Source: Rhodohalobacter halophilus
Lineage (GTDB): Bacteria; Bacteroidota; Rhodothermia; Balneolales; Balneolaceae
Length of the DNA stretch: 64,000 nt
Assembly: GCF_001715195.1 (NCBI RefSeq)
Contig: NZ_MDWE01000022.1
Location: forward strand, 1-64,000
Direction: 5' to 3'
Made by a program: the position numbers and the translations under genes. Under the pieces are notes generated by a model. The model was not told where the DNA came from, did no database searches, and saw only the letters and a list, made by a program, of their open reading frames with translations. Positions 2,466 through 21,834 of this stretch are shown here, one piece after another. The number at the start of each line of letters is the position of its first letter. Within the stretch, counting starts at the first letter, position 1.

Positions 2466-2531
2466 TATTGGTTTTTGGTTTGTGTTGTTTGTTTGATTGT
2501 TAGTTTTTTAAAAGCTTTTGTACACCCCTCT

Positions 2532-2557
2532 AAATCTCCCCTTGTTAGGGGAGACTT
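2532..2557. repeat. CTCCCC/GGGGAG palindrome
   Basis: TCTCCCCT (2535-2542) pairs with AGGGGAGA (2547-2554) around TTGT-like loop bases, flanked by AAA and CTTT. It matches the longer copy at 5425-5452 and lies 5' of the yceI-like gene and 3' of the nitroreductase. Confidence 0.7.
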
Positions 2558-2595
2558 TATCATATTTCATACAAGATTGGAGACGAAATCATACA

Positions 2596-3228
2596 TTAAT
2601 TCAGATGCAGAATCAGTTTCTCTTTCTCTCGGCGGACTTTTTTTGCACCGGCCAGGAAGTCATTCTCTTCATCCCGGTACCCTAATGCCATCATTGCGAC
2701 GCTGCGCAATCCTTTTTCACGCAGATTTAAAATCTCATCCACTTTTTCCGGAATGAACCCCTCCATTGGCGTGGCGTCCACCTGCTCCACGGCGGCAGCG
2801 GTCAAAGCGGTACCCAATGCGATATAAACCTGCCGCGCTGCCCATTCATATCTCTCTTCAGGTGTTCGGCTCTGCACTGTGTTGATCAATGAATTTCTGA
2901 AATCTGTCAGCGAATCGAGGGTTACACCGCGCACATCGGCGATATTTTGCATGTATTCGTCAATCTGCTGCTCGCTGATGTCATCCCAGGCCGCAAATAC
3001 AATCAGATGGGAACCTTCAACAATCTGCGGCTGGTTGTATGCAGCCGGTTGAAGTTTCTTTTTCAACTCTTCGTTTGTCACCGTAAAAATGGTATACGGC
3101 TGAAGTCCCATCGAAGAAGCTGAAAGCCGAATGGAATCTAAAATTTTTTCAATTTTCTCTTCAGGAACCTGTTGACCGTTCATGCGTTTTGTGGCGTATC
3201 GCCAGTTCAGTGCATCTATTAAGTTCAT
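2596..3228 (-). CDS. NAD(P)H-dependent nitroreductase-family oxidoreductase
   Basis: A 210-residue FMN-dependent nitroreductase (NfsB/YfkO type). It begins with LIDALNWRYATKRMNGQQVP, where the RYATK segment contacts the FMN phosphate. It has SMGLQPYTIFTVTNEE and a C-terminal section with PMEGFIPEKVDEIL and ALGYRDEEND, matching the family order. The reaction is NAD(P)H-driven two-electron reduction of nitro compounds or quinones. It is transcribed alone. The length is normal for the family. Confidence 0.88.
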   Translation of the reverse strand: MNLIDALNWRYATKRMNGQQVPEEKIEKILDSIRLSASSMGLQPYTIFTVTNEELKKKLQPAAYNQPQIVEGSHLIVFAAWDDISEQQIDEYMQNIADVRGVTLDSLTDFRNSLINTVQSRTPEERYEWAARQVYIALGTALTAAAVEQVDATPMEGFIPEKVDEILNLREKGLRSVAMMALGYRDEENDFLAGAKKVRREKEKLILHLN

Positions 3229-3305
3229 TGTTTCTATGATATATTTTTTAATGTTGAATCTTTGTACTGTAAATATTCTTGTCTAATCTTTTTCTTACCA
3301 ATTCC

Positions 3306-3812
3306 TTAGTGAGGCTTTAATTCTTTTAGAAGGGGCTTGAAACCGGCTTTCTCTACCATCTCCTTAACGGTTCGCAGAGCCCTTGTGTGCTTTGTCATCA
3401 GTTGAACAGACTCTTTATCGTAATCGGACGGAATAACTCCTACCACTTTTGAATGGGGAAAACCACGCTCCACCAACTCAAGCTGCTGCAAGTCGGTTTC
3501 TTTCAATAGAACTGCAACAATTTTCTGGGTTGCTACCTCTCGAATTTTTTCAGACAATCTGTTTATATCATTGACGGGGTTTGCAATAACAACAACATCA
3601 GCTTCCCAGCATGCCATATGCTGGCACTCAATCACTTCTACTTCTGCCCCTTCAATTTCAGCACATATCTGATCAGATAGTTGACCTGCAAATGTATCAT
3701 CTTCATCGAAGAGGAGCAGCTTGTAATTTTCACTGCATAACCCTTTTGCAATGGACACACCCAGTATCGATTTACTGCCTATAATAGCAACGGTCTGTTT
3801 TGTAATTGGCAT
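3306..3812 (-). CDS. Rossmann-fold NAD(P)-binding protein, probable Fnr-regulated
   Basis: A 168-residue protein with an N-terminal beta strand and glycine turn (TVAIIGSKSILGVSIAKGL), a second strand at KLLLFDEDD, and DVVVIANPVND. This is the layout of the NADP-dependent F420-reductase/prephenate-dehydrogenase-like Rossmann group. It lacks a recognisable C-terminal catalytic domain, so it is either a small dehydrogenase or a binding domain only. Two Fnr-type boxes lie 60-95 bases upstream and the Crp/Fnr gene is immediately upstream on the same strand. This suggests induction by low oxygen or NO. The function is otherwise unknown. Confidence 0.6.
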   Translation of the reverse strand: MPITKQTVAIIGSKSILGVSIAKGLCSENYKLLLFDEDDTFAGQLSDQICAEIEGAEVEVIECQHMACWEADVVVIANPVNDINRLSEKIREVATQKIVAVLLKETDLQQLELVERGFPHSKVVGVIPSDYDKESVQLMTKHTRALRTVKEMVEKAGFKPLLKELKPH

Positions 3813-3870
3813 GATTTGTTGAGTCTTTTTTTAATCTAACTTATGATAAAAACCATGCAGTGAGGCGACA

Positions 3871-3884
3871 TTGATACAGATCAA
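3871..3884. promoter_or_regulatory. Fnr/Dnr-type box, perfect
   Basis: TTGAT-N4-ATCAA is an exact match to the Fnr/Dnr consensus. Its centre is about 65 bases upstream of the start of the Rossmann-protein gene. This is compatible with activation from the -41.5 position if the leader is about 24 bases long. Confidence 0.7.
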
Positions 3885-3893
3885 GAAATTGTA

Positions 3894-3907
3894 TTGATCT
3901 ATGTCAA
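3894..3907. promoter_or_regulatory. Fnr/Dnr-type box, one mismatch
   Basis: TTGAT-N4-GTCAA differs by one base from the Fnr consensus. It lies 23 bases (about two helical turns) from the perfect box and overlaps the last codons of the Crp/Fnr gene. Confidence 0.5.
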
Positions 3908-4482
3908 GATTTAGTAAGACTGCGGCGCACACGACTTAGGGTTTCCGGTGTCATGCCAAGGAATGATGCAATTAAATGCTGGGGTACTCTCTCTTTTGTT
4001 TGAGGATAGTCTTCAAGAAAACGAGTGTATTTCTCTTCAGCCGAGAGACCAATGGTGTTTTTGATTCTGCGCTGTAGGGCCACAAATGCATTCTGAAATA
4101 GAATTCGGTTGTAATTTGCAAAAGCCGGCACCTTCTCCATCAGTTCATTATTCTGATCCCGGTCAATCATCAGCAGCTCGCTCTCTTCAAGTACTTCAAT
4201 GTTCAGTTCAGAAGGTTCATCCGTTAAAAAGCTGTAGAGATCGGCTATCCACCACCCTTCAAACCCAAACTGTATCACATTTTGATTCCCATTCTCATCC
4301 AGCGAGTAGGAAAAAAGCGCCCCTTTTTCGATAAAAGCAAGCCGACGGCAAACATCACCGCTCTGGAGCAGAAACTGGCGCTTTCGCATTCTTTTGGGAA
4401 TAAAACTCGCCTTACAGAGCTCCCACTCCTCCTCGCTCAGTGTAACGTGTTCATGAATACTATTATAGAGCTGTTCGTACAT
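3904..4482 (-). CDS. Crp/Fnr family transcriptional regulator
   Basis: A 192-residue regulator with an N-terminal cyclic-nucleotide-binding-like beta roll (FLLQSGDVCRRLAFIEKGALF) and a C-terminal winged helix (VPQHLIASFLGMTPETLSRVRRS). The recognition helix, TPETLSRVRR, keeps the Glu, Ser and Arg that read TTGAT half-sites in Fnr-like proteins. There is no N-terminal cysteine cluster for 4Fe-4S binding, so the signal could be heme/NO or another ligand. The matching boxes just downstream and the surrounding NO-related genes make it the likely local regulator. The start is ATG at 4482. Confidence 0.9.
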   Translation of the reverse strand: MYEQLYNSIHEHVTLSEEEWELCKASFIPKRMRKRQFLLQSGDVCRRLAFIEKGALFSYSLDENGNQNVIQFGFEGWWIADLYSFLTDEPSELNIEVLEESELLMIDRDQNNELMEKVPAFANYNRILFQNAFVALQRRIKNTIGLSAEEKYTRFLEDYPQTKERVPQHLIASFLGMTPETLSRVRRSLTKS

Positions 4483-5466: not shown

Positions 5467-6546
5467 TCATTCATATCGACTTCGGATCAGTTGAATCATA
5501 ATTCCTCCCAGGAACAGCAGTATTGCCGCAATATTTCCGTAGCTACCGATTTTCCTAATCATATCCCAAAAGAACAGGTCACCGGCAATTCGCAGAATCA
5601 AACAGCCGTGCAGCAGAATCAGCGGCAGATAGAAATATCGGCTATAGGGTACAATTTTTCCGGTTAATGAAGGGATGATCACGGCCGCATGGGCAAAGAT
5701 CATACTAAATACAAATCCTACAAAATAGATGTGCAGAATCGCATCATATAAAGCCCCGGCTTTGGGCATTCCAATAACAATCCCAATCATGCCACCGACA
5801 ATAATCCATCCGTAGCCAGTAAGCAGGCTCCAGGCACTGTATTTTGTCCATCCCGACATTTTGATTGTTTTTCGGGCAACATCATACCGGATCAGCCAGG
5901 CGGCAATTCCAATTAAAAAGAGCGAGCCGATCATCCAGAACAGGTTTCTTTGAAAATGAACACCTGCCAATGTCAGGAACCAGCCGATAATGAGAATAGA
6001 GAATAGATTTACGGCTTTCTGTGGCGGACGCATGATCCGGTTTAATTCCAGCCGTTCACCAAAAATGGTGAGGAGCGGAAAAGCAATCCACCAACCGATC
6101 AATCCATAAATTGGCACTTGAAAAATGAAGAGCAGATTACCAATTAGCAGAGCCAGTGCACCGCCGGCCATAATGTAGTGGTGGTTGACGCTCTGTATGT
6201 AACAGAGATAGCCCATTATCAGAAAAAGTGTGATGGTGCCAAGGATGAGAAAATAACCACCGAGTGGTGCAAACCCGACCATCAATAAAATGGTGGAGAG
6301 TGCAAATGACATTGGAGCGATGTAGGTCCACAGTTTTTCCAGGGCTGCGCCCCGTTCCAGGGAGATCAGCGTTCCCAAAAATCCGTTTATCATGAGCGGA
6401 CCGTGTGCCATCGCGCCGATCTCAAGAGCCGATGGAAGCAGAATTCCCAGCCTGATCAATCCGGCATAGAGTCCCAGCAGCAGCCCGATACCGGCCGTAA
6501 AAAGAAGAACTCCGAAAAGCGTATTCAGTACCGTTGTTTTGTTCAT
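5467..6546 (-). CDS. NnrS-like polytopic membrane protein
   Basis: A 359-residue very hydrophobic protein with about ten to twelve membrane helices. A conserved His appears in AMAHGPLMINGFLGTLISLER near helix 2, and further His residues occur in NHHYIMAGG and LHIYFVGFVFSMIFAHA. These features resemble the NnrS/heme-copper-oxidase-I-like group. NnrS proteins are heme- and copper-containing membrane proteins that protect against NO stress. Placement between the globin and the DUF59/DUF2249 genes supports that reading. It might instead be a distinct, unnamed family of HCO-I-like proteins. Confidence 0.6.
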   Translation of the reverse strand: MNKTTVLNTLFGVLLFTAGIGLLLGLYAGLIRLGILLPSALEIGAMAHGPLMINGFLGTLISLERGAALEKLWTYIAPMSFALSTILLMVGFAPLGGYFLILGTITLFLIMGYLCYIQSVNHHYIMAGGALALLIGNLLFIFQVPIYGLIGWWIAFPLLTIFGERLELNRIMRPPQKAVNLFSILIIGWFLTLAGVHFQRNLFWMIGSLFLIGIAAWLIRYDVARKTIKMSGWTKYSAWSLLTGYGWIIVGGMIGIVIGMPKAGALYDAILHIYFVGFVFSMIFAHAAVIIPSLTGKIVPYSRYFYLPLILLHGCLILRIAGDLFFWDMIRKIGSYGNIAAILLFLGGIMIQLIRSRYE

Positions 6547-6632
6547 TTTGGATAAAATTACTGTGGTTCAATCAACCTGAAAGCATCCGGAGGATCTGTG
6601 AGCGTTGGAATTAAAATCAAAAATTTCTGACG

Positions 6633-6673
6633 CTGACAGGAGGTTCAAAAAAGGCACAGAACCACGCTGTCAG
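6633..6673. repeat. CTGACAG ... CTGTCAG inverted repeat
   Basis: CTGACAG (6633-6639) and CTGTCAG (6667-6673) face each other just 3' of the DUF59 gene. They share the CTGACA core with the palindromes at 7031-7063 and 14748-14778. Confidence 0.5.
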
Positions 6674-6674
6674 A

Positions 6675-7013
6675 TCATCCCCTTGGCGGAGGCGGTACGG
6701 CAAAAAACTCCACGCCGGGTTTAATCATTTCAACTTTCCAGTCCGGTTTCATGACCATGTTCACTTCGAATGAAGATAGCTGTTCTTCTTCCTGGATGAT
6801 CTCCTTAACGGCTTTTTCAACCTGCTGTTGCAGATAACGACGCATAGGGCAGCCCGGCGTCGTGGTTGTGAACTCAACCGCGATCTTTTGATCATCGAAG
6901 CGGATCTGGTATACCAACCCCAGGTCAACGATGTTGACACCCAGCTCCGGATCGATGACACTCCTCAGTTTCCGGACCACCCTGCGTCGTATGTGTCCTG
7001 TTTGAATGGACAT
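6675..7013 (-). CDS. SufT/PaaD-like (DUF59, MIP18) Fe-S assembly protein
   Basis: A 112-residue DUF59 protein. The core VIDPELGVNIVDLGLVYQIRF is the family hallmark, and TTTPGCPMRRYLQQQVEKAV contains the conserved reactive Cys. DUF59 proteins help deliver or mature Fe-S clusters (SufT, MIP18, PaaD). The ATG at 7013 is preferred because the longer reading begins with a TTG inside a dispersed palindrome. The DUF2249 gene directly upstream on the same strand, with 50 bases between, suggests a shared transcript. The protein ends in a short proline-rich tail (VPPPPRG). Confidence 0.87.
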   Translation of the reverse strand: MSIQTGHIRRRVVRKLRSVIDPELGVNIVDLGLVYQIRFDDQKIAVEFTTTTPGCPMRRYLQQQVEKAVKEIIQEEEQLSSFEVNMVMKPDWKVEMIKPGVEFFAVPPPPRG

Positions 7014-7030
7014 TTTTTTATTACCAATTG

Positions 7031-7063
7031 AGACCTGACAAGTTTTCAAAACCTGTAAGGTCT
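7031..7063. repeat. CCTGACA/AAAACCTGT palindrome
   Basis: An imperfect palindrome of 33 bases, with outer arms AGACCT/AGGTCT and inner arms GTTTT/AAAAC. It lies between the DUF2249 and DUF59 genes. A second copy with the same core is at 14748-14778 and a half copy lies near 10050-10063. Confidence 0.8.
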
Positions 7064-7064
7064 A

Positions 7065-7310
7065 TTACTTATAAGATATAATTTTACTGATTCTCACTCT
7101 CCATTTCTCAGGACCCTCTTGGAGATAATCCCATTCAAACTGCCCCTCCCTTTCAAATTTAAATTGAAATTTCAGTGGTCTGGGATCGTGATCATTTTTG
7201 ATGATAAATGCATCTCCCGGATTCAATTCATCAAAAGTCTGAAAAATGGTTGAATGCTTTTTGGGAGGAGCAATTTTTGTTACATCAAGGATCTGTTCTG
7301 TTTCTGCCAT
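7065..7310 (-). CDS. DUF2249 domain protein
   Basis: An 81-residue single-domain DUF2249 protein. The family core is visible: LDVTKIAPPKKHSTIFQTFDEL, then the FIIKNDHDPRPLKFQF segment with the conserved DHDP, and GPEKWRVRISK. DUF2249 proteins are small TusA-like folds often found beside RIC, hemerythrin and NO-reductase genes. Their activity is not established. It is divergent from the RIC-like gene, so both may share the regulatory region 7311-7521. The triple-domain relative lies at 9291-10040. Confidence 0.85.
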   Translation of the reverse strand: MAETEQILDVTKIAPPKKHSTIFQTFDELNPGDAFIIKNDHDPRPLKFQFKFEREGQFEWDYLQEGPEKWRVRISKIISYK

Positions 7311-9290: not shown

Positions 9291-10040
9291 ATGAACAAAA
9301 TTAAAGACGTTCTCGATGTACGGACACTCGTACCCATCAAACGACATGAAAAGCTTCACAAATTATTTTCTGAACTACCTGCGGGAGAGAGTTTTACGTT
9401 CATCAATGATCACGACCCCAAACCGCTCTATTACGAATTCAGATCCGTTTTCGGCGATGTGGTAGACTGGGAGTATATTAAACGAGATCCTGAAGAGTGG
9501 AAGGTTAAAGTAACGCGAACGGCTGATTCAGAATCAGACAAATCCGATAACGTTTCAACTCTGATTGATCTTCAAAAAGCGGACAAAAAGGATTGGAAAT
9601 ACACCATCTTTCACCGCTACGGGATGATGTTGCCGGGTGATACGATGGAGATCAGGGCTTCTGAAAGTCCGGAGGAGATCCACTCTATCTTTCAAAAGAA
9701 ATTTGAAGGCGAGCATAGCTGGGAATACAAAAAACAGGATGAGAGTGAAACCGTTATTCATATCACAAAGAATGCCGAAAATGATATCGATGCAACGGAT
9801 ATCACCGTGGTAAACAAGTTCGATGTTCGCCCCTTCCCTCCCGCTAAACGGCACGATATGGTATTTGATGCGTTTGAGGAACTGAAACCGGGAGAAGCAT
9901 TTGTGTTTATTAATGACCACGACCCCAAACCGCTCTACTACCAGATGGAGGCTGAGAACGATACCCCCTTCAAATGGGAATACCTGATGACACTCCCTGA
10001 AGAGTGGAAAGTGAAAGTGATGAAGCTGAAGGATAAGTGA
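9291..10040 (+). CDS. triple DUF2249 domain protein
   Basis: A 249-residue protein made of three tandem DUF2249-like units at about residues 3-75, 85-165 and 172-249. Units 1 and 3 are close copies: both have an RHxxL/RHDMV helix, FINDHDPKPLYY and EEWKVKV. The middle unit keeps the fold pattern (GMMLPGDTMEIRA, SWEYKKQD) but lacks DHDPKPLYY, so it is degenerate. DUF2249 is associated with NO and Fe-S stress gene sets, with unknown biochemistry. It ends the plus-strand group that begins at 7522. Confidence 0.82.
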   Translation: MNKIKDVLDVRTLVPIKRHEKLHKLFSELPAGESFTFINDHDPKPLYYEFRSVFGDVVDWEYIKRDPEEWKVKVTRTADSESDKSDNVSTLIDLQKADKKDWKYTIFHRYGMMLPGDTMEIRASESPEEIHSIFQKKFEGEHSWEYKKQDESETVIHITKNAENDIDATDITVVNKFDVRPFPPAKRHDMVFDAFEELKPGEAFVFINDHDPKPLYYQMEAENDTPFKWEYLMTLPEEWKVKVMKLKDK

Positions 10041-15144: not shown

Positions 15145-15160
15145 AAGACAAAGATGTCTT
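15145..15160. promoter_or_regulatory. AAGACA-N4-TGTCTT operator candidate
   Basis: A perfect 6-base inverted repeat centred about 28 bases upstream of the ATG at 15181. It overlaps an earlier in-frame ATG (15154), which argues for the later start. Further half-sites TGTCTT (15101-15106) and AAGACA (15038-15043) lie upstream. The Rrf2 regulator of this cluster is a natural candidate to bind it. Confidence 0.45.
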
Positions 15161-15180
15161 TTAATGGTTCACAGCAAACA

Positions 15181-15555
15181 ATGAAACGCATTTACTCAAT
15201 CATATTAATTCTCTCAATAGCAGTGGGCACAATTCAGCCGGCCTTGCCTATGATTGAGTCTATACTGAATCACCACGATTTCAGCAGATTAATACAAGTT
15301 GATCTTTCAGAAAGCGAAGGAGTTGTTTGTGCTTTACAGTGTGCCCTGACGAATATTCAGAAAGAGTGTGAGATGGATCATGAGGAGGATGAAAAACTAC
15401 TGGATGTAGACTACTATCCGATTCCGCTCAAAATGAGCAACTCACCGGCTTTGGGCTTGCTGCCAAGTCAAAATGGAAGATACATTCAAATTGGAGAGAA
15501 TCTGCTTACGAATTACATACTGCCCAATGCACCCCCTCCCCGGCATCATAGCTGA
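15181..15555 (+). CDS. small secreted Cys/His protein
   Basis: A 124-residue protein with signal peptide MKRIYSIILILSIAVGTIQPA. The mature part contains LNHHDFSRLI, a Cys pair with a third Cys nearby (CALQCALTNIQKEC) and a terminal PPPRHHS. The layout, PMIES-hydrophobic-Cys-Cys, recalls small periplasmic proteins found near copper genes in Bacteroidota, but the match is weak and function is not established. It starts the copper/nitrite cluster, 58 bases before nirK. The ATG at 15181 gives a clean signal peptide. An earlier ATG at 15154 lies inside an operator-like repeat. Confidence 0.55.
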   Translation: MKRIYSIILILSIAVGTIQPALPMIESILNHHDFSRLIQVDLSESEGVVCALQCALTNIQKECEMDHEEDEKLLDVDYYPIPLKMSNSPALGLLPSQNGRYIQIGENLLTNYILPNAPPPRHHS

Positions 15556-15613: not shown

Positions 15614-16828
15614 ATGAAATTTTTCAAAAACATATCAATTATAACGTTCATCCTATTTTTTATCGCGGGCTTGATGAACCTGCAGGCGCAAACACAGGAG
15701 TACAAAATAGATGGCATGACCTTTGGTATGCCGGAAGCAAAAGTCTATACCGACGACTACGACGGACCACCTGTTGTGGGTGAGTATGTAACGATGCTGC
15801 CAAAACTTGCAAAACTGGATTATGAGGGTAACAAGCATCATCACGTTCGTCTCGACACATTTACACAGGAAATAGAAGTAGCCAGCGGAGTCCGTTACCG
15901 CGCATGGACATTCGGAGGAATGGTGCCGGGTCCGGTTATTCATGTGAAAGAAGGTGATCGAATCACCTTTACCATGAAAAACCGTTCAGACGAGATGGTT
16001 GAAATCACTCAGCCTATTGCTGAAATGATGCAGCAAAGTGAAGGACAGGGAGGACCCAGTGCAAATCTTGAGGTTCAGGCAAGTGTGAACGGATCTGAAT
16101 CTGCCGACCCATCCCCTTACCTTCGACAAATTCGTGAGAATAACTACATGGGGACAAAGTCTGCAATCATGCCGATGCCCCACTCCATGGACTTCCACTC
16201 CGGAACCGTTGCAAAAGATGATAAGTGGAGAACAATTGCTCCGGGTGAAACAATTGAGTTTGACTGGGTGGCAAACTATCCGGGAACATATATTTATCAC
16301 TGCGGAACTCCCAGTGTGTTGATGCATACTGCAATGGGTCAGCACGGTGTTGTGGTTGTTTCACCAAAAGACGGTTACGAAACCGATGAAAAAGTAGACG
16401 AAGAGTACGTAGTTGTTCAGTCTGAATATTACCTGAAAAAAGGATCGGGCGATCTCTACCAATACGACTTTGATGCTGCCCAGAATAAAAGACCGTCACA
16501 TGTTGTATTTAACGGTCACCAAACCATTCTTCACGATCAGCCGCTCACTGCCAATGCAGGAGAAAGAGTACGGATTCACTTTTCAAATAACGGCCCTAGC
16601 CTTACGTCCAGTTTCCACGTAATTGGCGGAATTTTCGATCGCGTCTGGATGGAAGGACATCCATTTAATGAAATGCGCGGAATGCAGACCGTTCTTCTTG
16701 GCGCTTCAAATTCAGCTACGATTGAATTTATAGTTCCTGAAGAGGGCAAATATATTCTCATTGACCACGAATTCGCCGATGCCGAAAAAGGTGCAACCGG
16801 AACCCTGGTTGCCGGCCCTAAGAAGTAA
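15614..16828 (+). CDS. nirK: copper-containing nitrite reductase (NirK family)
   Basis: A 404-residue two-cupredoxin enzyme with a signal peptide (cleavage near LQAQ). It reduces nitrite to NO in the periplasm. Type 1 copper ligands are His190, Cys230 and His238. Type 2 ligands are His195, His229 and His335. Asp193 and His296 sit at the catalytic Asp and His positions. The position five residues after His238, normally the axial Met, is Gln243 (MHTAMGQHG); Met241 is close by. A segment of about 50 residues rich in Glu/Gln/Ser, between ITFTMKNRS and PMPHSMDFH, is longer than in classical NirK. NirV-like, SCO and cupredoxin genes follow. Confidence 0.87.
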   Translation: MKFFKNISIITFILFFIAGLMNLQAQTQEYKIDGMTFGMPEAKVYTDDYDGPPVVGEYVTMLPKLAKLDYEGNKHHHVRLDTFTQEIEVASGVRYRAWTFGGMVPGPVIHVKEGDRITFTMKNRSDEMVEITQPIAEMMQQSEGQGGPSANLEVQASVNGSESADPSPYLRQIRENNYMGTKSAIMPMPHSMDFHSGTVAKDDKWRTIAPGETIEFDWVANYPGTYIYHCGTPSVLMHTAMGQHGVVVVSPKDGYETDEKVDEEYVVVQSEYYLKKGSGDLYQYDFDAAQNKRPSHVVFNGHQTILHDQPLTANAGERVRIHFSNNGPSLTSSFHVIGGIFDRVWMEGHPFNEMRGMQTVLLGASNSATIEFIVPEEGKYILIDHEFADAEKGATGTLVAGPKK

Positions 16829-16832
16829 AGTC

Positions 16833-17624
16833 ATGAAACTGCCTTTCAAGACATATCATCGACTGATACCTGTCCTGACTCTCCTGCTTCTAATTCTGGC
16901 AGCAGGAGTACAGGCACAGGAACGCGCGGTAACCATACCGGAAGGCAGTTTTCACTCAGTACTTCCGGAAGTTGAAGGGGAACCCCATCAGATTGATGCA
17001 TTCAAACTCGATACTACCGCAGTAACAAATGGAGAGTATCTGCAATTTCTGAAAGCCAACCCTGAATGGAGACGATCACAAATTTCTCCCCTCTTTGCAG
17101 GCAGCGACTATTTGCGGCATTGGGAAGAGGATCTTCGGATTGGCGATAAAGAGAGTCCGGATCAACCCGTAACCCGTGTCTCGTGGTTTGCAGCTAATGC
17201 TTATTGCGGCTGGCAAGGCGGAAGACTTCCAACTCTTAATGAGTGGGAGTTTGCAGCACAGGCAATGGACTTTGAAAACTCAACCGAAGCCAACCGATTT
17301 AGCAGTGAGCTGATTGGGTGGTACTCGGCTGTGGATACCAACTCAAAAAGTGAGGTGGGATCAACGGGAATTGAGAATCAATACGGAGTGAAAGATCTCT
17401 TCGGTTTGATCATGGAGTGGGTCGAAGATTTTAACCCTCCGGTGGCAGATGACATCTCTCTCGATTGCGGGACTGTCGGACGCATGCAGGGTGACCCAAC
17501 TGTTTACAGTTACGCCATGTCTATCCGGTACATTACCCGTATGAGCTTCAAACCTAAAAGCACAACCGGTATGTTAGGATTCCGATGTGCTTACGATATG
17601 AGCGCCAATGAAAAGGAGATTTAA
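16833..17624 (+). CDS. nirV: NirV-like formylglycine-generating-enzyme-fold protein
   Basis: A 263-residue secreted protein (signal MKLPFKTYHRLIPVLTLLLLILAAGVQA). The mature part has the FGE-sulfatase fold markers: FKLDTTAVTNGEYLQFL, PVTRVSWFAANAYCGWQGGRLPTLNEWEFAA, and a C-terminal GFRCAYD. NirV proteins of this fold are commonly encoded next to nirK; their role is unsettled. The ATG at 16833 is chosen because it begins the signal peptide directly after the nirK stop; the longer frame overlaps nirK. The terminal FRCA segment is conserved, but catalytic Cys pairs of true formylglycine enzymes are not evident. Confidence 0.82.
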   Translation: MKLPFKTYHRLIPVLTLLLLILAAGVQAQERAVTIPEGSFHSVLPEVEGEPHQIDAFKLDTTAVTNGEYLQFLKANPEWRRSQISPLFAGSDYLRHWEEDLRIGDKESPDQPVTRVSWFAANAYCGWQGGRLPTLNEWEFAAQAMDFENSTEANRFSSELIGWYSAVDTNSKSEVGSTGIENQYGVKDLFGLIMEWVEDFNPPVADDISLDCGTVGRMQGDPTVYSYAMSIRYITRMSFKPKSTTGMLGFRCAYDMSANEKEI

Positions 17625-17625
17625 C

Positions 17626-18258
17626 ATGAAATTTTTAAAAGCCATTTCAATATGGATGTTACTTGTTTCGGTCACTGCCGTAACTGCCCAGCACAGTCAC
17701 TCAGACGGGCACGATCACGGTCAGGCCGCGCATCACGCTAAAGTGATGGAGTCTGACAATACATTTCACTCTGAATCACTCTATCAGGTTCCGACTTTAT
17801 GGATGAACCAGAACGGAGAAGAAGTACAGATTCAGGATTTTGCCGGTCAACCTTTGATCGTGGTGATGTTTTATGGTAAGTGTACCGAAACCTGCCCGAT
17901 GTTGATTCAGCGAACCTGGAAACTCTACTCCTCTCTGAGTGAAGAGACTCAGGAGAAAGTCCACGTTCTGGCAGTCAGCTTTGATTACAAAAATGACACA
18001 CCAGAGGCACTGAAAAAGTATGCAGAGTACGAGCAGCTCGATCTGCCCGGATGGAATTTTGTAACCGCCGGCCAGACGGATATCCGTCAGCTTGCCGCCC
18101 TTTTGGGAGTTCAATACCGTGAACGCAGCGACGGTCATTTCGATCACTCAAACCTGATTACGGTTTTAGACAAGTTTGGAAATATCAGCCGCAGGATTGA
18201 AGGAATTATCGGAGATCTGAATGATGACTTAAAATTTATAGAATCGCTGGTTCAGTGA
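17626..18258 (+). CDS. SCO family copper chaperone/thioredoxin-fold protein
   Basis: A 210-residue protein with signal peptide, then a His-rich stretch (HSHSDGHDHGQAAHH) that can bind metal. The thioredoxin-like domain has the SCO motif KCTETCPML (C-x3-C) and the distal His in HFDHSNL. SCO proteins deliver copper or reduce cysteines at copper sites, usually for cytochrome oxidase. Here the neighbours suggest NirK or the cupredoxins as clients, which is inference. The ATG at 17626 has AAGGAG seven bases upstream and is preferred to the ATG at 17608. It overlaps the next gene by four bases (GTGA). Confidence 0.9.
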   Translation: MKFLKAISIWMLLVSVTAVTAQHSHSDGHDHGQAAHHAKVMESDNTFHSESLYQVPTLWMNQNGEEVQIQDFAGQPLIVVMFYGKCTETCPMLIQRTWKLYSSLSEETQEKVHVLAVSFDYKNDTPEALKKYAEYEQLDLPGWNFVTAGQTDIRQLAALLGVQYRERSDGHFDHSNLITVLDKFGNISRRIEGIIGDLNDDLKFIESLVQ

Positions 18259-18641
18259 GATGGATCATCTTCCATATTGCCCTGATGTTTCTGACCTCTA
18301 ACGAAGTGAACGCACAACAAATTCAACCAACAGAAACAGATACCGTTACCATCCGAATTGTGGGATCAATGGCAGATTCCAGGTTTGTACCGGCTGAAAT
18401 TGAAATCCGTAAAGGAGACCTGCTAAAGTTTATTGTGGAGGAAGGTGTACATACTGTTACGGCTTACCACCCCGATAACCGCAGACCAATTGGTATACCT
18501 GAAGAGGCAGAGTCCTTTGATTCCGATATTCTTCAAAAAGGTGAGGTTTGGTTTTATCAGCCGAATGTAGCCGGAGAATACAACTACTTCTGCCGCCCCC
18601 ACGAACGAATGGGACACAAAGGAAAATTTATCGTCCGATAA
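18255..18641 (+). CDS. plastocyanin-like cupredoxin with altered axial position
   Basis: A 128-residue secreted single-domain cupredoxin. Copper ligands expected are His66 (GVHTVTAY), Cys113 and His116 (YFCRPHERMGHKG). In plastocyanins the axial Met lies eight residues after the Cys. Here that residue is His121, while Met119 lies two residues earlier. Either a Met shift or a His ligand is possible. It probably carries electrons in the periplasm for NirK or other acceptors. The GTG start overlaps the sco stop codon, indicating translational coupling. Confidence 0.82.
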   Translation: MRWIIFHIALMFLTSNEVNAQQIQPTETDTVTIRIVGSMADSRFVPAEIEIRKGDLLKFIVEEGVHTVTAYHPDNRRPIGIPEEAESFDSDILQKGEVWFYQPNVAGEYNYFCRPHERMGHKGKFIVR

Positions 18642-18690: not shown

Positions 18691-19158
18691 ATGAAACGTA
18701 CAATTAAAACACTTATCACACTATTTACAGCACTTATAATCGCTCTACCAGCTTTTGCCACAGGTGAAAGTGATGAAATCAGAACTGTTCACATCAAAGG
18801 ACAGGACAACATGAAATTTGATGTGGAACTGATTGAAGCAAAACCCGGTGAAACGATTAAAATCATCTTTGAGACAGTGAGCAATATGCCGCCTCAGGCG
18901 ATGTCTCATAACATAGCTATTGTAGATCTTGGAACAGATACGGATGCGTTTGCACAAGCTTCCATGTCGGCCCGTGACAATGAGTTCATCGCGCCAGATT
19001 ATGAAGATCAGGTAATTTTCAACACCCCAATGCTTGGTGGCGGTGACTCTGTAGAGATGGAATTTACCGTGCCCGAAACCAAAGGTGACTACGACTTTGT
19101 CTGCACCTTCCCGGGGCACTATATGGCCGGAATGGTAGGTATTCTTCGGGTACAGTAA
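18691..19158 (+). CDS. azurin/auracyanin-like cupredoxin
   Basis: A 155-residue blue copper protein with signal peptide (cleavage near AFATG). The copper ligands are His in QAMSHNIAI, and Cys and His in CTFPGHYMAGMVG, with Met residues at the axial end of the loop. The segment between, with DTDAFAQASMSARDNEFI, is the helical flap of azurin-type proteins. It is a natural electron donor for NirK. It follows the plastocyanin-like gene by 49 bases. Confidence 0.9.
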   Translation: MKRTIKTLITLFTALIIALPAFATGESDEIRTVHIKGQDNMKFDVELIEAKPGETIKIIFETVSNMPPQAMSHNIAIVDLGTDTDAFAQASMSARDNEFIAPDYEDQVIFNTPMLGGGDSVEMEFTVPETKGDYDFVCTFPGHYMAGMVGILRVQ

Positions 19159-19189: not shown

Positions 19190-19621
19190 ATGCTTGCTGA
19201 ATCAGGTATATACGCAATAAAAGCCTGTGAGTATCTGGCCAACATCGGAGAGGATGAAGTCTGTCCGACCCGGAAAATCAGTCATCAACTTGGCTTGTCA
19301 AATGAATACCTGGTTAAAGTATTTCAGAAACTGAAAAAGAATGGCATTATCCGGTCGCAAAAGGGAGCGGCCGGAGGTGTTCAATTAAACATGAATGCCG
19401 CATCCATTACGCTTTATCGAATCATCAAAGCGACAAACCCCTCTTATTTGGAGATTATAAACCCGGTTGATATCCATGTGCTAAAAAATAGACACGACAA
19501 ACTTTACACATCGTTGATTACCCATGTTCATGATGTTCAGAATTTCCTCAAAAATACAACTTTAAAAGAATTTGCAGATAGCCGTTCCGGCGGTCTGCCT
19601 ATAACCACTAAAAATCCTTAA
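19190..19621 (+). CDS. Rrf2 family regulator lacking cluster cysteines
   Basis: A 143-residue Rrf2 winged-helix protein. It begins SGIYAIKACEYLANIG, with the recognition region KISHQLGLSNEYLVKVFQKLKKNGIIRSQKGAAGGVQL typical of NsrR/IscR. The three cysteines that bind the cluster in NsrR and IscR (around residues 90-106) are missing; the only cysteines are in the first 25 residues. The part after the winged helix has LEIINPVDIHVL instead. It could be a cluster-free Rrf2 type or use another signal. It lies inside the cluster it may regulate, and the AAGACA repeats upstream of 15181 are candidate sites. Confidence 0.85.
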   Translation: MLAESGIYAIKACEYLANIGEDEVCPTRKISHQLGLSNEYLVKVFQKLKKNGIIRSQKGAAGGVQLNMNAASITLYRIIKATNPSYLEIINPVDIHVLKNRHDKLYTSLITHVHDVQNFLKNTTLKEFADSRSGGLPITTKNP

Positions 19622-19627
19622 ATATCT

Positions 19628-20350
19628 ATGAATCAGAAGAACTTATCAGAAATGACCGTAGGCGATATTGTAGCAGAAAATTACAATGCTGCGGGCGTAT
19701 TAAAAGAGTATGGAATTGACTTTTGCTGTGGAGGAGGACTTCCACTCGCAACTGCTTGCGAAAAGAATGGCGCTGATGTAGATCAAGTTACCTTCAAAAT
19801 TGTAAATCTTACAGATGAACGTAATTCAAATCATAAATTCACAGCTTGGGAACCCGATTTTCTCATCGATTACATCATAAATAATCATCACTCCTATGTC
19901 CGTAAAAAGGTGGATGAAATTTCGGCCTACGCTGCGAAAGTAGCCAAAGTGCACGGTGAACGGTATCCTGAAAACATTGAGATTTACCAGCACTTTATAA
20001 CTCTGGCTAATGAAATGATTGAACACCTTGAATCAGAAGAGTTGCGAGTCTTCCCTCTTATCAAAAATATTCATGAACGCTTGAAGAGTGGAGAAACTCC
20101 GGACGAGGAGTTGATTAAGAAGCTCAAAAAGGAGCTTGAACTGATGGAAGATGAACATGAAACTGCCGGAGATCTGATGAAAGCGATTCATGAGCTCAGC
20201 AACGGTTTCACACCGCCTGCTGATGCCTGTGCCACTTATCAAATCCTTTATCAGAACCTGAAAGGGTTTGAGGAAGACCTGCACCGACACGTTCATCTCG
20301 AGAACAATATTTTATTCAAGAAGGCTGAACGGTTCATACCCGCAGCTTAA
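19628..20350 (+). CDS. ric: iron-sulfur cluster repair di-iron protein RIC
   Basis: A 240-residue RIC (YtfE/ScdA) protein that repairs Fe-S clusters damaged by NO or oxidants. The ScdA_N domain carries YGIDFCCGGGLPLATACEK. The hemerythrin-like part has NNHHSYVRKK, EHLESEELRVFPLI, EDEHETAGDLM and HRHVHLENNILF, which provide the His and Glu ligands of the di-iron site. All ligands appear to be present, unlike in the copy at 7522-8259. It is 6 bases downstream of the Rrf2 gene, so the two are probably co-transcribed. Its length is normal. Confidence 0.93.
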   Translation: MNQKNLSEMTVGDIVAENYNAAGVLKEYGIDFCCGGGLPLATACEKNGADVDQVTFKIVNLTDERNSNHKFTAWEPDFLIDYIINNHHSYVRKKVDEISAYAAKVAKVHGERYPENIEIYQHFITLANEMIEHLESEELRVFPLIKNIHERLKSGETPDEELIKKLKKELELMEDEHETAGDLMKAIHELSNGFTPPADACATYQILYQNLKGFEEDLHRHVHLENNILFKKAERFIPAA

Positions 20351-20971: not shown

Positions 20972-21421
20972 ATGCCTACATCCACGCGCTGGTTTGTCCG
21001 TTCCGGAATGGTTTATTTTCTGCTTGGAGTAATTCTCGCTTTTTTAAGTGAGTTTGAACTTTTCAGTAAAATCTCACTCCTGCCCGTTTACTGGCACATG
21101 CTAGTGATTGGGTGGATTACACAGTTGATCATTGGTGTATCCGTCTGGATGTTTCCTCGAAAATATCGCGACAAGAAAAAGAGAGAGTCTATACTGGTCT
21201 GGACTACGTTCTGGTCCCTCAACCTCGGGTTGATTTTACGTTTCATCTCTGAACCGATCTTGCACCTCTATCCCGGCAGCACTCTGCTCAATGGAGTTGT
21301 CATTCTATCTGCTCTTCTCCAGGTCACAGCATTTCTTTGTTACATCGCCGAAATCTGGCCAAGGCTTCAACCCAGGAAGAAAAGACGGCAAAAATCAAAG
21401 AAAAGAGAGGTAAACGCATGA
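20972..21421 (+). CDS. four-helix membrane protein, member A of a paralogous pair
   Basis: A 149-residue protein with four membrane helices and a basic C-terminal tail (KKRRQKSKKREVNA). The segment YWHMLVIGWITQLIIGVSVWMFPRK resembles one helix pair of heme-copper oxidase subunit I and NnrS proteins, with a conserved His. The next gene encodes a close layout match (VHYELAIWGWMVQFIIGTAYWMFPK). They share four bases (ATGA) and probably form a heterodimer. A heme-binding or NO-related membrane role is inferred from motif and context. Confidence 0.65.
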   Translation: MPTSTRWFVRSGMVYFLLGVILAFLSEFELFSKISLLPVYWHMLVIGWITQLIIGVSVWMFPRKYRDKKKRESILVWTTFWSLNLGLILRFISEPILHLYPGSTLLNGVVILSALLQVTAFLCYIAEIWPRLQPRKKRRQKSKKREVNA

Positions 21422-21834
21422 TGCCGCTTCAATCGATATGGATGATGAAAATCTCCCTGATGTGGCTTCTTATCTCGATTTTCATAGGAGGACTGATACT
21501 CATTGAGAAAGCCGCTGGAGTTCTTCCGGCTGTCTGGGGATTACTCTCAGTTCATTACGAATTGGCTATTTGGGGATGGATGGTTCAATTTATCATCGGT
21601 ACTGCCTACTGGATGTTCCCCAAATTCCTGACAGGAACCAGAAGAGGCCCCGAATGGGCTGCGTGGTCTGTTGTCGTCCTTCTAAATGCAGGAGTGATTT
21701 CCCTGATTAGTTCTGTGTTGCCACAGTTTGGTTATCTGCCAAAACTAGGGCGAGGTCTGATTTTGTTGAGCATTCTTGCTTTTGTTACCCTGACCTGGAA
21801 ACGGGTTGTTACCTACCGTAACCACTCTCATTGA
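21418..21834 (+). CDS. four-helix membrane protein, member B of a paralogous pair
   Basis: A 138-residue protein starting at the ATG that overlaps the stop of member A. It has four helices, an HYELAIWGW motif aligned with WHMLVIGW of member A, and a shared YWMFPK ending to the second helix. The longer frame starting at 21337 is not used because it lies inside member A. It is the last gene of the plus-strand copper/nitrite cluster. No family name can be assigned from the sequence. Confidence 0.62.
   Translation: MMPLQSIWMMKISLMWLLISIFIGGLILIEKAAGVLPAVWGLLSVHYELAIWGWMVQFIIGTAYWMFPKFLTGTRRGPEWAAWSVVVLLNAGVISLISSVLPQFGYLPKLGRGLILLSILAFVTLTWKRVVTYRNHSH

Follow-up and report, generated by a model that had tools for sequence, protein, structure and literature searches.

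A two-domain copper nitrite reductase homologue of Rhodohalobacter halophilus with glutamine at the axial position of the type 1 copper site

The nirK gene and its neighbours

The window, that is the whole 64,000 nt stretch of Rhodohalobacter halophilus DNA analysed here (positions 1 to 64,000 of contig NZ_MDWE01000022.1), contains a cluster of seven genes in the order nirK-nirV-sco-cupredoxin-cupredoxin-rrf2-ric. The genes, and one notable segment of the first, are as follows.

15614..16828, + strand: nirK-type gene, 404 aa, two cupredoxin domains and an N-terminal signal peptide (matches to TIGR02376, PF07732 and 3wkq)
15986..16174, + strand: insert of variable length in NirK, residues 125-187, directly N-terminal to the type 1 ligand His190 and unmatched in solved NirKs
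16833..17624, + strand: nirV-like gene, FGE-sulfatase domain (PF03781), the usual companion of nirK
17608..18258, + strand: SCO1/SenC-type copper chaperone (PF02630), conserved in the operon
18255..18641, + strand: plastocyanin-like cupredoxin (PF00127), possible electron donor, with Cys113, His116, Met119 (+3) and His121 (+5, the axial place)
18691..19158, + strand: azurin-like cupredoxin (PF00127; TIGR02695, 64.7 bits) with an ordinary axial Met (CTFPGHYMAGM), alternative donor
19190..19621, + strand: Rrf2-family regulator, NsrR/IscR-like (PF02082)
19628..20350, + strand: RIC/ScdA-type iron-sulphur cluster repair protein (TIGR03652, 229.5 bits, above the cut-off)

The product of the first ORF (15614-16828, + strand) scores 193.9 bits against TIGR02376, below the curated cut-off of 296.3, which is an annotation rule and not a biochemical definition of NirK, and the match is split into two stretches that flank the insert. 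Since such a gene falls short of the NirK threshold, nitrite reduction in the Balneolaceae may be undercounted. The Pfam matches are to Cu-oxidase_3 (PF07732) and Cu-oxidase_2, the top match of known structure is the Geobacillus NirK 3wkq (E 4e-66), and the nearest named relatives by this gene are species of Gracilimonas, Fodinibius and Balneola, which places the genome in the Balneolaceae. No second nirK was found when the assembly was searched, and this ORF is the sole nirK. The protein stops 19 residues past His385, without a C-terminal cupredoxin domain. Comparison with closer relatives gave pN values of 0.09-0.18 and pS values, which are saturated, of 0.74-0.79; the gene is under strong purifying selection. 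The insert, which is approximately 63 aa here and 35 aa in most relatives, varies in length within the clade and may cover the donor-docking or the substrate face.

The nirK-nirV order is also seen at the nirK loci of S. meliloti and Sagittula and in most relatives. Relatives commonly carry nirK, nirV, a SCO gene and a plastocyanin-like and/or an azurin-like cupredoxin gene, often with the Rrf2 and RIC genes downstream. Three further features of the region were recorded. A small protein without a Pfam or NCBIfam match is encoded just upstream of nirK (15154-15555), and homologues occupy the same place in several relatives (L032 and L116-L119). At 20972-21834, beside the RIC and CopD genes, lie the genes for two adjoining small proteins of 149 and 138 aa, which weakly resemble COX1 and are kept in some relatives. 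Upstream of the cluster, 9291-10040 encodes a protein with three DUF2249 domains.

Copper ligands and the axial position

The residues of NirK that correspond to metal ligands and catalytic residues are listed below (all + strand).

16181..16183: His190, type 1 copper ligand (alignment)
16190..16192: Asp193, catalytic Asp (in the HSMDFH sensing loop)
16196..16198: His195, type 2 copper ligand (alignment)
16298..16303: His229 (type 2) and Cys230 (type 1), the His-Cys bridge (alignment)
16325..16327: His238, type 1 copper ligand (alignment)
16334..16336: Met241 (His238+3), probably second sphere; invariant in the clade
16340..16342: Gln243 (CAG), probable type 1 axial ligand (His238+5); invariant in the clade and in the place of Gln130 of TsNirK, the Thermus scotoductus enzyme
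16616..16618: His335, catalytic His (aligned with the His of RPHLIGG in S. meliloti NirK and with TsNirK His216)
16766..16768: His385, type 2 copper ligand from domain 2 (alignment)

By alignment, the equatorial ligands of the type 1 site (His190, Cys230 and His238) and the three His ligands of the type 2 site (His195, His229 and His385) are complete. Asp193 and His335 are present, together with Ile337, Gln358 and Thr359, which correspond to the other catalytic residues. The catalytic His of AcNiR, His255, falls in the column of His335. In TsNirK the catalytic set is His216, Val218, Gln239 and Thr240 (PMC6400189), and their fixed spacing identifies His335, Ile337, Gln358 and Thr359 as the counterparts. 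The original prediction that the type 2 ligands and Asp193 are kept was thus correct, but its choice of His296 as the catalytic His was not. His335 lies in SSF-H-VIGG and His296 in PSH-VVFNG, and His296 is ruled out as the His of the latter motif is missing in the sister subclade (PTVVAFNG).

The type 1 loop reads Y-H229-C230-G-T-P-S-V-L-M-H238-T-A-M241-G-Q243-H-G, and the usual axial Met of NirK is absent, its column being occupied by Gln243. The alignment with solved Met-type NirKs has no gaps between His238 and Gln243 or in the strand that follows, which bears out the earlier reading of the loop as H-T-A-M-G-Q with Gln five residues past His238 in the NirK Met place. Among 74 NirK cores, sampled thinly beyond the Bacteroidota (plasmid records only), the axial column contains Met (44) or Gln (30) and nothing else. 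Gln243 is invariant in all 26 distinct homologues, and conversion of ATG to CAG involves two base changes. This conservation, the need for two changes and the purifying selection together rule out chance or an assembly or sequencing error as the source of Gln243.

The decisive precedent comes from TsNirK. In its 1.63 Å structure (6HBE), the ligands of the N-terminal type 1 copper are His75, His125 and Cys115, together with Gln130, which binds through its side-chain oxygen; the enzyme is intensely blue and active at 65 per second (PMC6400189). Gln130 is at His125+5, with Gly at +3, and the TsNirK loop HTMGGQFG aligns with HTAMGQHG of the window protein. As a solved NirK with Gln exists, the axial Met is usual for NirK and not a defining feature. 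AlphaFold models of the window protein and of a Met-type control (from Fodinibius roseus, locus L034), built from alignments of 9-10 rows, had pLDDT values of 35 and 42, too poor for use, and the ligand was therefore assigned by homology. On this basis, Gln243 is very probably the axial ligand of the type 1 copper, in place of the usual Met, as was predicted.

Amicyanins, with the short loop Cys-x2-His-x2-Met, bind copper through a Met at His+3, and this raises the question of whether Met241 (His238+3), the alternative ligand named in the original prediction, is the axial ligand and Gln243 a bystander. Met241 is present in 17/17 representative rows that combine the catalytic Asp with the axial Gln (Asp/Gln), and the column does not contain Met in Met-type rows. 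Because the clade shows no variation at Met241 either, comparison of its sequences does not by itself decide between the two residues. However, the next strand (x-G-V-V-V) is in register with Gln243, as it is with the ligand in Met-type NirKs and in plastocyanin, and TsNirK ligates copper by the Gln at +5 and has Gly at +3; because of the fixed register and the TsNirK precedent, we consider ligation by Met241 improbable. Also against it, the pseudoazurin loop HYAMGM uses the second Met as the ligand, and the plastocyanin-like cupredoxin encoded nearby varies at +3 and is fixed at +5.

Distribution of the axial Gln and the His-axial cupredoxin

All 26 distinct Asp/Gln homologues are from the Balneolaceae, and none was found outside this family among 244 genomes of the class; the alignment proposed with the original prediction thus reveals a Gln shared by a whole clade. 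The clade is made up of two subclades, HTAMGQHG and HMSMGQYG, and its support in the trees is 99/96 and 98/93. At the two loci of the HMSMGQYG type whose flanks are complete (L115 and L116), nirV and SCO genes were not found next to nirK. The sister of the window clade is a Met-axial clade (HMISGM) from another Bacteroidota family, approximately 50 % identical, and the grouping of the two has support of 99-100/94.

Gln also occupies the axial column in a second and distant group, most of whose members are long proteins in which Ser replaces the catalytic Asp (HGASIH, GHAIPMHVMFGQYG). This group includes a Thermus protein and is also present in further species of the genus to which the window belongs. 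Loci from other members of that genus and of its order (L010-L025 and L075) carry a long HGASIH NirK with Gln as the axial residue, of the Thermus type, in place of the window type. In Fodinibius roseus (L034), a Met-type NirK (2519-3955) adjoins a Gln-type NirK (5986-7116); both have a nirV and a SCO gene of their own downstream, and the Met-type protein has a C-terminal extension that resembles cytochrome c (CQACH).

The best trees include two Met/Gln changes, whether the ligand columns were in or out. Forcing all Gln sequences into one clade gave a tree that was only 9.5 log units worse (AU test, p-AU 0.058), which is the argument for the Balneolaceae enzymes and the Thermus type sharing one Gln ancestor, with the window gene as a branch of the TsNirK kind. 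Set against this are the pairing of the window clade with the Met-axial Bacteroidota clade at 99-100/94, the two changes found by parsimony, and the differences in domain count, catalytic residue (Asp or Ser) and loop length (Cys+8 vs Cys+10). A single origin is disfavoured, and we regard it as unlikely; the window clade is separate from the Thermus type, with two origins of Gln in the best tree.

The plastocyanin-like cupredoxin (18255-18641) also has an unusual axial residue. Its PHERMGHKGK aligns without gaps with PHQGAGMVGK of plastocyanin, placing His121 at the axial Met of the latter. A search of 238 genomes of the class at E < 1e-30 gave close homologues in 20, all of them Balneolaceae with a Gln-type NirK, although in one (G444) nirK is present only as a fragment at a contig end. 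These homologues share the motif CxPHExxGHxG[RK], with His at +5 in 20/20 and Met (12), Leu (7) or Val (1) at +3; in distant cupredoxins of the class, the +5 residue is Met. As six of the 26 Gln-NirK genomes lack the His-axial cupredoxin, it is not the sole reason for the Gln, and we note that the two genes share an operon and were inherited together, so their co-occurrence reflects common descent in addition to function. Tentatively, Gln ligation may have arisen a second time in a two-domain, Asp-keeping NirK and been matched by a change from Met to His at the axial position of the donor cupredoxin, both ends of the pair being retuned together. The operon would be a natural test of joint tuning of donor and acceptor copper potentials.

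Function and comparison with known systems

Judged from its sequence, the protein is probably (probability roughly 0.8) a working periplasmic copper nitrite reductase in which Gln243 binds the type 1 copper and which is fed by a cupredoxin of the operon. The side-chain oxygen of Gln243 would bind the type 1 copper as in TsNirK and stellacyanin, the cupredoxin would hand electrons to this copper, and the electrons would reach the type 2 copper by way of the Cys230-His229 bridge and reduce nitrite to NO there. With less confidence, we suggest that Gln tunes the potential to the His-axial plastocyanin-like donor where this is encoded (20 of 26 genomes), and that the remaining genomes use the azurin-like protein or another donor. 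Given the kept catalytic set, the cluster neighbours and NosZ in the genome, a role in denitrification appears likely. NosZ is full length (897 bits; contigs C9, C17 and C53 examined, loci L162, L165 and L166). No NorB-type NO reductase was evident in a heme-copper oxidase family search of the assembly, which is 97.8 % complete; that search yielded only two proteins resembling oxidases, plus two matches that were short and weak.

The TIGR02376 score below the cut-off, the altered type 1 site and the lineage insert close to the active site would also be consistent with an oxidase or other copper enzyme of the NirK fold that has lost nitrite reduction. This is very unlikely, however, in view of the complete type 2 and catalytic set, the neighbouring nirV, RIC and Rrf2 genes and nosZ in the genome, and the activity of TsNirK despite its Gln and Ser changes.

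For the potential of the type 1 copper in a nitrite reductase with Gln, a lowered value, also part of what was first proposed, is plausible by analogy: the M148Q substitution took rusticyanin from 667 to 563 mV (PMC11881046). Values of 240 mV for AcNiR, with axial Met, and 265 mV for stellacyanin are given in the same paper (PMC11881046); the ordinary AcNiR potential is already at the stellacyanin level. Stellacyanin shares with the window NirK a Gln axial ligand at a type 1 copper, but it is a plant electron carrier and no enzyme, and is kin by the cupredoxin fold only.

The prediction that the enzyme is of the NirK type and has Gln at the axial position is supported by the alignment, the clade-wide conservation and the solved Gln-NirK 6HBE. 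Its novelty is reduced. A Gln-ligated NirK was already known from TsNirK (PMC6400189), and the main surprise is gone. As far as found, what is new is the setting, namely two domains, a retained Asp193, a Gln fixed across the family, a clade apart from the Thermus type and a His-axial partner. Our literature search for Gln-axial NirK in the Bacteroidota or Balneolaceae returned only PMC6400189, but subscription papers were mostly not covered and an earlier report is possible.

By score, the closest solved relative is the Geobacillus NirK (3wkq, 3wi9, 3x1e), which has the same Cys+8 spacing (YHCGTKPVLQHIANGMHG) and the catalytic Asp and His but differs from the window protein in its axial Met and in lacking the insert ahead of the type 1 His. 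The NirKs of the Met-axial sister clade (L051 and L108-L110; loop GTPMVLLHMISGM) likewise differ in the axial residue, and no nirV, SCO or plastocyanin-like genes were found near them. TsNirK has the NirK core and the His2-Cys-Gln type 1 site in common with the window protein, the likeness of the Gln at His+5 being one of position by sequence. However, TsNirK carries an extra cupredoxin domain at its C-terminus, three in all against two in the window protein, and it has Ser where the window protein has Asp193 (Ser is found in 13/13 rows of the TsNirK-type clade), and a His at Cys+10 and no insert where the window protein has Cys+8 and the 63-aa insert. Because its active site is otherwise textbook, the window NirK would allow the effect of the axial Gln to be separated from those of the extra domain and the Ser catalytic residue of TsNirK.
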